From Nitrospirales bacterium LBB_01 (GTDB lineage: Bacteria; Nitrospirota; Thermodesulfovibrionia; Thermodesulfovibrionales; Magnetobacteriaceae): a stretch of 64,000 bases of DNA. Made by a program: the position numbers and the translations under genes. The stretch covers positions 1,550,001 to 1,614,000 of the forward strand of contig CP049016.1 of NCBI GenBank assembly GCA_004376055.2, written 5' to 3'. The notes under the pieces were generated by a model. That model saw nothing but the letters and a program-made list of their open reading frames with translations. It did no database searches and was not told the DNA's origin. Below are positions 50,369 through 54,505 of the stretch, in pieces; positions within the stretch are counted from its first letter, which is position 1, and every line of letters starts with the position of its first letter.

Positions 50369-51679
50369 TTAATGTTCAAAATCGTATCCGTTCTCTCCGT
50401 GTACGGCAAGGTCAAGCCCCATAGACTCATCCTCCTCAGAAAGCCTCAACCCTATAACCATATCAACTATTTTCAAAATTATAGCCGATACTACAAATAC
50501 AAACACGTAGCTTGCCACCACTGCTATTAACTGCTTCATAAGCAGCCCGGGGTTGCCGTGTAACAGCCCGTTTTTACCAGCCGGGTTAATCACAGTGGAT
50601 GCAAACACACCGGTTAAGAGTGCTCCCAGTGTTCCTCCAACTCCGTGAATACCAAGCACGTCAAGTGAGTCATCAAGGCCATGCTTTGGTCTGAAACTTA
50701 CCGCTATGTAGCAAATAACTCCTGCTGCGCCGCCTATTATAATAGAAGCCACAGGCCCTACGTATCCTGCTGCCGGTGTTATTGCAACAAGACCTGCCAC
50801 AGCGCCGCTGACTACACCAAGGGCTGTCGGTTTCCCTCTATGATACCATTCAACAAATGTCCATGCCATTGCGGCTGCTCCTGTTGCCGTGTTTGTGGTA
50901 ACAAACGCAATAGATGCAAGACCGCCAGAGGTTAGGGCGCTCCCGGCGTTAAATCCAAACCACCCAAACCACAGAAGCGCTGCTCCCATAATGGTCATAG
51001 TCACGTTATGAGGGGGCATCGCAACTTTTCCGTAACCCTTACGTTTACCGATAAAAAGGATGGCGGCAAGTGCAGCCACAGCCGAGTTTATATGCACAAC
51101 TGTACCTCCTGCAAAATCAAGAGCGCCGAGCGCCCCGCCTATCCAGCCGCCACCCCACACCCAATGACAAAGAGGCGCATAGACAAAGGTCAACCACAGC
51201 GCAGAGAACATAAGGAGTGCTGAAAATTTCATCCTCTCAGCAAACGCTCCGGTTATAAGAGCCGGTGTGATTGCAGCAAACATTCCCTGATACATCATAA
51301 AAAGCAGATGAGGTATTGTTGTGGCATAATCAGATGGCTCCTGCCCGACTCCATTTAGACCAAACCATTCCAAGCCTCCGATTAACCCTCCCTTATCAGG
51401 CCCAAAAGCAAGCGTATATCCCCACAGAACCCATATCACGCTTACCATACAGAGTATGATAAAACTCTGTATAATAGTGCCCAAAACGTTTTTTCGTCTA
51501 ACCATCCCTCCGTAAAACAACCCAAGCCCAGGCGTCATCAACATTACAAGCGCAGTGGAAACCAACATCCATGCCGTATCTCCGGTATTTAACACCTTTT
51601 GTGGCGGCGGTGCATCGGCAGCATAACTCAGAGCCGCTCCAGCCAGTACAAATCCTACAGTTAACAGTATTTTTAACAT
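50369..51679 (-). CDS. amt: ammonium transporter
   Basis: 436 residues. An N-terminal signal-like segment (KILLTVGFVLAGAALSYAAD), then the Amt core: DTAWMLVSTALVMLMTPGLG, LFYGGMVRRKNVLGTI, FAGGTVVHINSAVAALAAIL, GAALLWFGWFGFNAGSAL, DSLDVLGIHGVGGTLGALLT. The twin His of the pore are in VVHIN and GIHGVGG. Eleven or so helices. It is downstream of glnK on the same strand (43-nt gap), the standard glnK-amt pair, here in the order glnK then amt. Confidence 0.95.
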   Translation of the reverse strand: MLKILLTVGFVLAGAALSYAADAPPPQKVLNTGDTAWMLVSTALVMLMTPGLGLFYGGMVRRKNVLGTIIQSFIILCMVSVIWVLWGYTLAFGPDKGGLIGGLEWFGLNGVGQEPSDYATTIPHLLFMMYQGMFAAITPALITGAFAERMKFSALLMFSALWLTFVYAPLCHWVWGGGWIGGALGALDFAGGTVVHINSAVAALAAILFIGKRKGYGKVAMPPHNVTMTIMGAALLWFGWFGFNAGSALTSGGLASIAFVTTNTATGAAAMAWTFVEWYHRGKPTALGVVSGAVAGLVAITPAAGYVGPVASIIIGGAAGVICYIAVSFRPKHGLDDSLDVLGIHGVGGTLGALLTGVFASTVINPAGKNGLLHGNPGLLMKQLIAVVASYVFVFVVSAIILKIVDMVIGLRLSEEDESMGLDLAVHGENGYDFEH

Positions 51680-51722
51680 CTACCCCTCCAGTTTATAATG
51701 TTTTTTTATTTCATTTGTCATA

Positions 51723-52076
<354 letters not shown>

Positions 52077-52109
52077 TTAGTTTGATTTCCATCTGATAAT
52101 ATATATATA

Positions 52110-52125
52110 TCACAAACTGTGCCAA
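52110..52125 (-). promoter_or_regulatory. candidate sigma-54 promoter for glnK-amt
   Basis: Minus-strand TTGGCACAGTTTGTGA. The -24 part (TTGGCAC) is good; the -12 part has GA instead of GC. Predicted start about 36 nt before the ATG of glnK. Confidence 0.4.
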
Positions 52126-52177
52126 TGTTATATGCTTGAATTTAAAGGATATTATTGAAATAAGTTTATGTATAATG

Positions 52178-52209
52178 CTACAATTTTGTAGTAAGCTACA
52201 ATTTTGTAG
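52178..52209. promoter_or_regulatory. two tandem palindromes upstream of glnK-amt
   Basis: CTACAATTTTGTAG occurs twice (52178-52191 and 52196-52209), 18 bp apart. The arms CTACAA / TTGTAG are perfect. They are centred ~88 and ~106 bp upstream of the predicted glnK start, a usual enhancer position. Confidence 0.5.
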
Positions 52210-52306
52210 GGTTTAGTGGGAGTCGAGCTCTGCCCGCAAAACAGATGTCCAGATTAAAGAATTTACAAAATGTTATCGCTTAAGTGTAAACCAGTATAAA
52301 TAGAAA

Positions 52307-52954
52307 TCAGCCCCATTTTTTGTTATTAATAAACTCTTTCAAGTCGTTTTCAAGAGACATAAATGCGGGTAAATTTTTTAAGAGTGCAAAATTCTCAATA
52401 TTCTCAGCAACCAGGTAAGCTTTCTTATGTATATCACGCTTTAATTTTTCTAAATGCCTGCCCTTAAGTCCACTGGCTGAAATTAGAAGATCCATTAAGT
52501 ATCCTTTTGGATCGCTTAGGGTTTCAATAGTGTTAAAATCTGGTAGAGTCAGCTTTATCTTTCCATTTGGGTTGCCTGCAGCTTTGCGTATCGCAGGTTC
52601 ATCAAATAGAATCCATGCTTCTTGCATCCTTACAGGCACCACACATATTGAGGGAGGCTCAGGTATTCTTTTAGAGACGGTCTTAACCGCCTGAATAATT
52701 TCTTGTATTCGTTGCTCATGTGAAATACCCTCAGCATCCCTATGAATAAAAAGAATATTGCAAGGGTATAGCTCAATGCTCTTTTGTATTTTATCTTCTA
52801 AGGTCTTTGGTTTTTGTGGCAATCTGCTAAAATCTGCCCACTCGGATTGAACTGTTAATTCGGGACAGTGTTCATTAAGCAACCAATCAAGGATTGGAAT
52901 GAGCCTTTTATCTGAGCTGCCATCTGACAACAATGTGTACTTAATTTCTTTCAT
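52307..52954 (-). CDS. TOPRIM-like (DUF4276/OLD-nuclease-type) partner of AAA ATPase
   Basis: 215 residues. The N-terminus TLLSDGSSDKRLIPILDWLL has the E/D-G-x-S-D type start of TOPRIM-like nucleases, and NILFIHRDAEGISHEQR gives the DxD/E-type second motif. C-terminal part helical (ASGLKGRHLEKLKRDIHKKA). It overlaps the ATPase gene by 4 bp (ATGA). Such pairs are typical of anti-phage modules (PARIS- and OLD-like). The family name is inferred from motifs, so the exact system is open. Confidence 0.65.
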   Translation of the reverse strand: MKEIKYTLLSDGSSDKRLIPILDWLLNEHCPELTVQSEWADFSRLPQKPKTLEDKIQKSIELYPCNILFIHRDAEGISHEQRIQEIIQAVKTVSKRIPEPPSICVVPVRMQEAWILFDEPAIRKAAGNPNGKIKLTLPDFNTIETLSDPKGYLMDLLISASGLKGRHLEKLKRDIHKKAYLVAENIENFALLKNLPAFMSLENDLKEFINNKKWG

Positions 52955-54444
52955 TTTGAATTATCAGAAGGAAAAGGAAGTAATTGTTGAATGTCATCTC
53001 TGTCTATTACCCGATGTTCTTTTTCATGTGCCTCATCTTTTGCAGCTACTGGGTTTAAATACGCAAGAAGTGTACCTTTATTAACTATTTCAATCCCATC
53101 CCGCTTTTCAGCTCTCCATGTTTTATCTAAGCAGCTAAAACGAACACTTTTAAAACGTTTACCACCTCGCTTATTTTCTTTAAGTTCGGCAACAAGGAGG
53201 CTGTCATCGGGAACCTGAGCAACAACGGCTGGTGAGTGAGTGTTTATTATGACTTGACGAGGCGGATTATCAGAACCGGCAGGCAATTCTGCGTTAGTTG
53301 TTATATCTCTTAGAAGCTGAATCATTGCAGGAATTCTTGCCGGGTGAATACCATTTTCAGGCTCCTCCAAACAAATAAGCCCCTGCGCCTGAGTATCCAG
53401 CTCAAGCACCGCTGCAGCCAAAAAACGCAGTGTCCCATCGGATAGATCCCGGGCTGCAAAAGTACAACCACTACGATCGGTTAGTGCAAGCGTAAGTAAC
53501 TCACGTTTTTCATCACGGTCAACACTTATTTCATAGACGTCGTCTATTAACTCAGAAAGCCGGTTTGCAACCTCTGCATAGACCTGCGTTTCAATCTCAA
53601 ACTGATTTTCTTTATTAAAATTCTCTTTTGTTCGCGGTAAATGGTATAAAGTTGATGGAAGGTTAGAGCCATCAGAACCTAACTTTTTTGGAGCATTAAA
53701 TTTATCGGGTTTACGTAGGGCGGTTGGCTCAAGGAGCAATAATCTCCATGACTGCATTTCCCTTTTTGCTATAATTGCCGTGCGTGTCTCAGTTGCATTT
53801 GTTAAAGTGGAGAGTACGGTTCTGCCTATATTTTTGGCAAGGATTGGACGAGGTCTGCCACCACCCTTATTCTCTCCACGGTCTTGATGAATTATAATTA
53901 GAGCCTCTGAACCCTCTTTTTCAGTAGAAATAAATGGCGCTGTTCTCCTTCCTTCAATTACAGTATCACGCCAGGGCTTTTTATGTGGAAAGAGAAGATG
54001 TTTGGAGGCATCACCAATTTTGATATGAGAAAGTTCTTCTTTGAGTATTTGGATATTGCCCTGAGAACCTGTGTTTTCAACTTCAGTAAGACCCAGCTTA
54101 ATAGAATATCTTAGAAACGTAATACTTGCCACTGCATCCTGACCGAGATCGTCAACGTCTTTTTTAGGAACTATCATCTCTGCTTCTAAAGTAATAATAT
54201 TATCTGTGAAATTACCCGATCTATGAAATATACTTTTAACGTCAGTTGCTCTGCCATTTTCATCCCGAACCGACATAGCGGCATCAATGAATGGCTTTTC
54301 GGCAAGAGAACTAAAAAAAAGTATTGCATCAAACAAGTTTGATTTTCCGACACCGTTAGCGCCTGCGATACACGTAAAAGGTCCAAACCTAATGTCAACA
54401 TCAATAAGGTTCTTAAACCCGGATACTTTAAATCTCGTAAGCAA
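52951..54444 (-). CDS. AAA/ABC-type ATPase (AAA_15/AAA_21, OLD-like)
   Basis: 497 residues. N-terminal beta hairpin and P-loop: FKNLIDVDIRFGPFTCIAGA with Walker A GANGVGKSN; a long inserted arm domain (~100-320); ABC-like signature DLSDGTLRFLAA; Walker B GLICLEEPENGIHP; switch His in VIINTHSPAVVAQV. This is the SMC-like ATPase type found in OLD, RloA and many defence systems. It is followed by an overlapping TOPRIM-like gene. Together they form an isolated two-gene unit; the role is inferred. Confidence 0.82.
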   Translation of the reverse strand: MLTRFKVSGFKNLIDVDIRFGPFTCIAGANGVGKSNLFDAILFFSSLAEKPFIDAAMSVRDENGRATDVKSIFHRSGNFTDNIITLEAEMIVPKKDVDDLGQDAVASITFLRYSIKLGLTEVENTGSQGNIQILKEELSHIKIGDASKHLLFPHKKPWRDTVIEGRRTAPFISTEKEGSEALIIIHQDRGENKGGGRPRPILAKNIGRTVLSTLTNATETRTAIIAKREMQSWRLLLLEPTALRKPDKFNAPKKLGSDGSNLPSTLYHLPRTKENFNKENQFEIETQVYAEVANRLSELIDDVYEISVDRDEKRELLTLALTDRSGCTFAARDLSDGTLRFLAAAVLELDTQAQGLICLEEPENGIHPARIPAMIQLLRDITTNAELPAGSDNPPRQVIINTHSPAVVAQVPDDSLLVAELKENKRGGKRFKSVRFSCLDKTWRAEKRDGIEIVNKGTLLAYLNPVAAKDEAHEKEHRVIDRDDIQQLLPFPSDNSK

Positions 54445-54505
54445 TAGTTTTTCCTTTTTTCCCAGTATTAACTATACATGTTTTTAGCGGATTTTGACAA
54501 CCGAA

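Follow-up and report, generated by a model that had tools for sequence, protein, structure and literature searches.

Among described systems, the closest to the gene pair analysed here is HEC-01 (Hma-embedded candidate 1 of PADLOC-DB 2.0.0), which owes its listing as a candidate to guilt-by-embedding, having been found within other systems. According to PMC12988326, several HECs, including HEC-06, are antiviral; in the literature searched, no experimental test naming HEC-01 was found. Here, we describe a pair of this type on the minus strand of a 64,000-nucleotide stretch of DNA from a Nitrospirota bacterium (the window), which covers positions 1550001-1614000 of one 3.27-Mb contig. Gene A (HEC-01A; 52951..54444) is an open reading frame for an SMC/OLD-type ABC ATPase of 497 amino acids with a TTG start, and gene B (HEC-01B; 52307..52954) is an open reading frame for a diverged DUF4276 protein of 215 amino acids with an ATG start. 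The two share four bases (52951..52954), the junction AAATGAAAG being an ATGA in which the stop of A overlaps the start of B. A promoter-like TTGTCA-18-TATAGT on the same strand (54471..54500), a match to the consensus only, lies just upstream of A. A sequence-only reading of this DNA had proposed a two-gene unit with such an overlap, and both frames were found where it placed them, together with all of the motifs that it quoted: GANGVGKSN, LEEPENGIHP and NTHSPAVVAQV in A, SDGSSD and HRDAEG in B. Since these motifs hold positions that are invariant, or that vary only between acids, across 66 A and 71 B proteins, they go beyond chance.

By profile match, the pair is already covered by the HEC-01 models and is a catalogued defence candidate. 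A matches HEC-01A (PDLC04184) at 7.7e-93 over residues 1-414, and B matches HEC-01B (PDLC04210) at 1.4e-25 over residues 2-209, a model that is also matched by 71/71 aligned relatives of B. With existing models for both genes, the suggestion of a possible variant system falls away. The ATPase motifs of A comprise a Walker A (G28-S35), an LSDGT signature (334-338), a Walker B with its glutamate (LICLEEPEN, 356-364) and an H-loop (H403). The Walker A, LSDGT, EEPEN and H-loop elements are invariant or almost so in the 66 homologues, with G28, N30, G33, K34, S335, G337, E360, E361, P362, E363 and H403 unchanged throughout. In Pfam, A matches AAA_21 (3.9e-27) and also AAA_15. Its AlphaFold model is confident (pLDDT 92), and the closest folds in the PDB are those of PtuA from Septu and retrons (9e90, 8eea; E ~2e-12 to 2e-11), with SMC/Rad50 heads found too. 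The earlier description of A as an SMC/OLD-like ATPase is thus borne out by its AAA_21 and HEC-01A matches, by PtuA/SMC-head folds and by intact ATPase motifs. A has no nuclease domain of its own, and neither Pfam nor a genome-wide OLD-like_TOPRIM search at 1e-6 found an OLD-like TOPRIM in it.

The small partner had been read as carrying TOPRIM-like acidic motifs while not obviously matching the usual partners. The latter does not hold, since B is, from profile evidence, a diverged DUF4276 protein, and DUF4276 was on that reader's own list. B itself scores 17.8 bits against Pfam DUF4276 (PF14103), under the curated cut-off of 30.2; the homology is drawn from its relatives, of which 67 of 71 match DUF4276 (best 9.3e-13), and from hhalign of the B profile against 17 DUF4276 proteins (1.9e-10 over 186 columns). 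TOPRIM proteins carry a glutamate after beta1 and a DxD after beta3. In the model of B, which is very confident (pLDDT 94.7) and runs beta1-alpha1-beta2-alpha2-beta3-alpha3-beta4 and then into helices, D11 comes directly after beta1 and D73/E75 directly after beta3, which is the TOPRIM placement in a D/E-swapped form, and all three acidic motifs are at the expected places. D73, E112, W114, P138 and E144 are invariant in the 71 B proteins, and D11 and E75 vary only to the other acid. When profiles were compared, DUF4276 matched the OLD TOPRIM at 5.6e-5, in the first motif, the positive control (the known TOPRIM family DUF4435) reaching 4.2e-4 against OLD. B alone gave only 0.013 against the OLD TOPRIM, with a score of 21.8, and 60 column shuffles all scored lower (maximum 18.2). 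Foldseek of the B model against the PDB and viral structures returned no match below 0.001; TOPRIM proteins were absent among the 50 matches listed, which were weak generic folds, many of them Rossmannoid, and a sequence search of solved structures with B produced chance matches only. Motif order, predicted topology and the DUF4276-OLD profile match speak for a TOPRIM fold, and the Foldseek result against it. Because Foldseek returned no TOPRIM structure, we call B TOPRIM-like on the strength of its motifs, topology and ancestry, and do not regard the fold as proven. Judged by these features, B is a probable, if putative, small metal-dependent nuclease, and it seems fairly likely that the pair has nuclease activity.

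With the B alignment as query, a scan of ~85,000 species genomes yielded 326 relatives, of which 80 were kept; the B sequence alone had yielded none from genome contigs. The two genes lie side by side in 79 of the 80, across about a dozen phyla. In 78 loci, the two genes lie on one strand with A immediately upstream; one locus is cut by a contig end, to which A was lost (L093), and another is convergent. In L062 and L074, a B match lies directly behind A. The sole convergent arrangement among the kept relatives comes from candidate division KSB1 (L032:6001-8220). Pairwise distances of A and B are correlated (r 0.734; permutation maximum 0.296) and dN/dS is 0.10-0.39 in close pairs: A and B coevolve, under purifying selection. 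The tree has 26 phylum-label changes against a shuffled mean of 43, so that phyla are partly intermixed, a picture compatible with some transfer over vertical descent.

We propose a chromosomal defence module of the HEC-01 type, in which an oligomer of A would hold B and sense infection and B would cut nucleic acid, and we place the probability of this reading at roughly 0.6. The idea of a candidate defence module had been raised from the sequence; it gains from the HEC-01 family match and from relatives that lie in defence loci, and a role in defence is, on balance, probable. A, as an OLD/SMC-head ABC ATPase, would form an oligomer as in PARIS and Septu, holding or recruiting B, and would sense an infection cue. 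B, as a DUF4276-type (TOPRIM-like) protein, would act as a metal-dependent nuclease with a predicted centre of D11, D73, E75 and E112. Once activated, A would let B cut tRNA or DNA, and either phage growth or the cell would be stopped. Such a trigger-and-release mechanism, suggested by analogy with AriA/AriB, is put forward tentatively; for the analogy that A senses and gates and B cuts, PMC12839542 is cited. The conserved residues of the pair are named targets for mutation.

The pair might instead be an ATPase-nuclease pair for nucleic-acid repair or stress response, with a housekeeping role and none in defence, although we consider this unlikely. Most relatives, the window copy included, have housekeeping-gene surroundings. 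In the window, the pair stands alone between selA and glnK-amtB, and three congeners retain hflC-selA with no pair behind it. In one related genus, where gene identities were read from sequence, the pair comes after pyrR-pyrB-pyrC-carA, a Rieske protein, a large peptidase-like protein and an Smr-domain protein, and the downstream genes differ; in Nostocales, it adjoins coaD. Fixed chromosomal places within clades, such as these two, favour a housekeeping role, as do strong purifying selection and low carriage by mobile elements (among viral contigs there were no close relatives, B was not found in phages, and only one close relative is in a plasmid record). In addition, an archaeal OLD-type ATPase outside defence, Cran1, is described in PMC12796447. 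Consistent housekeeping neighbours, which the sequence-only reading had named as telling against a defence module, were seen inside single clades (e.g. the related genus above) and not across genomes. Three family genomes have the pair near glnK-amtB and/or a common porin-like gene (window 50369-54444, L015:4985-10006, L021:6912-10764), with outer neighbours that differ.

Copies that lie inside Hma or beside BREX or Gabija in several genomes speak against a housekeeping role. In L043, the pair is located between HmaA (8e-181, upstream) and HmaB (1.8e-50, downstream), and in L101 it is beside HmaB (3.7e-214). PglZ and BrxL of BREX adjoin the pair in L086. In Candidatus Magnetominusculus sp. LBB02, a member of the window's own family, the pair is directly upstream of a complete Gabija (L035:4562-10848; GajA 1e-241, GajB 1e-228). 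SNF2-type helicases matching ZorD/DpdE models are the neighbours in L026 and L049, and TIR-like genes flank the pair on both sides in L092. As the count of defence neighbours had no matched control, we claim association and not enrichment. The distribution also argues against housekeeping. Even inside the family and genus, the pair occurs patchily (8 of 60 relatives, with broken copies counted), and the majority of genomes in each phylum lack it: one phylum gave 3 close matches in 292 genomes, and another gave a few in 301. Phyla are intermixed on the tree as well. Moreover, the pair is broken in two congeners, in which the same IS630-like insertion splits B after residue 35 (G002, loci L021/L008; G003, loci L020/L007); G002 has, in addition, a frameshift in A near residue 44. 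An IS-broken B and a frameshifted A are as expected of a dispensable module. On a different contig of G002 (L022), a C-terminal fragment of B lies beside another copy of the IS.

It is rather improbable that the pair works as a plasmid-restriction or toxin-antitoxin-like module, with B held in check by A and with mainly plasmids or the host cell, not phages, as targets. An ATPase and a small effector in one operon, the deposition of AriA in the PDB as 'AriA antitoxin' and the decay of both genes together in a congener would suit such a module, but toxin-antitoxin modules are usually more mobile than this pair. It is very improbable that B is a non-catalytic Rossmannoid partner that binds nucleotide or metal and has no nuclease activity, as generic Foldseek matches lacking a TOPRIM nuclease might suggest, given that two acidic positions allow D/E exchange only, that D73 and E112 are invariant and that the order and spacing of the motifs are as in DUF4276/TOPRIM.

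The presumed active site of B carries an unusual exchange of acids. Positions 11/75 are D/E in 64 rows of the 71-row alignment and E/D in 6, one row being without its start, and neither D/D nor E/E ever occurs. A larger set of 120 rows, made up of the B subfamily, bridging sequences and canonical DUF4276, holds 81 rows of D...DxE, 25 of E...DxD and 0 of D...DxD. D73 and E112 are fixed in this set except in 1-2 rows, and the second motif is loose only in remote DUF4276 proteins, whose alignment is uncertain. The E...DxD form occurs in four subfamily members (L065, L067, L089, L094). Three of them, from Chloroflexota (L065, L089, L094), have in common a DnaJ-like neighbour that is ~66% identical, suggesting a single vertically retained locus. 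A quick tree for the acid states was built without the acid columns; the best tree needs five changes, two of them within the subfamily, and well-supported branches carry one independent pair only, for which reason the claim of a repeated acid swap was dropped. The D/E coupling is clear as a pattern, and repeated coupled switching is no more than suggested. The TOPRIM-type metal centre could possibly be rewired in the B subfamily, the Glu having changed places with the second Asp of DxD (D...DxE); the two positions would change only together, always with one Asp and one Glu. If this is true, the acids of a nuclease centre would have been swapped in a compensatory way, with metal use or substrate possibly altered, and the swap provides a natural test of how far a TOPRIM-type centre tolerates acid exchange. 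Within a limited literature, no earlier description of a coupled D/E exchange is known to us.

The pair shares features with several known systems. RloA/RloB was rejected, no RloB family match having been found among the 71 B proteins at E 0.1. The similarity to MADS lies in A, which matches NCBIfam MAD3 at 3.5e-42. Membership was rejected, as the score of 145 bits is under the cut-off of 420, B has no match to MAD4 and no MADS cluster was seen; two distant DUF4276-type proteins match MAD4 weakly (1.3e-4 and 6.5e-3). With OLD and GajA, the pair has in common the class of ATPase and a TOPRIM-type acidic motif, but here the ATPase and the acidic domain are encoded apart, and a helicase partner is lacking. 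A single-protein OLD/Gabija was rejected, as a search of the genome for OLD-like_TOPRIM at 1e-6 gave no match. PtuA of Septu and retrons provides the best PDB folds for A, whereas the partner here is DUF4276-like and not the HNH nuclease PtuB, and no retron was seen.

PARIS (AriA/AriB) also has a separate ABC ATPase and TOPRIM-like protein, and the PARIS-like build noticed in the sequence is indeed present in the pair. A matches the PADLOC AriA model at 4.9e-27 but fits HEC-01A far better, and B is DUF4276-like, unlike AriB, which is DUF4435. hhalign of B against DUF4435 gave 0.45, and no DUF4435 match came from B, from the 70 relatives aligned with it, from the genome that holds the pair or from 148 genomes of the phylum. 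Membership of PARIS was rejected on this ground, B not being DUF4435; by analogy, the pair may work like PARIS though it is not PARIS. DUF4276 proteins (PF14103) share with B the three acidic motifs and an upstream ATPase partner, but canonical members are E...DxD, and the B subfamily is D...DxE, with the window B below the Pfam cut-off. The same genome holds two more ATPase + DUF4276 pairs, which do not belong to the B subfamily (L211:2567-4515 and L212:4625-6468, at ~40.6-42.5 kb and 1476.6-1478.5 kb), and with these it appears to carry three modules of this build. Finally, the pair resembles HEC-01 in its two-gene build, in the match of both proteins over most of their length and in the relative that is embedded in Hma (L043), the source of the name; it differs in that the window copy lies outside Hma and in that B carries D...DxE. 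HEC-01 is supported as a true two-gene unit by 80 loci spread over many phyla, by the strict pairing and coevolution of A and B, by their decay in congeners and by an Hma-embedded copy.
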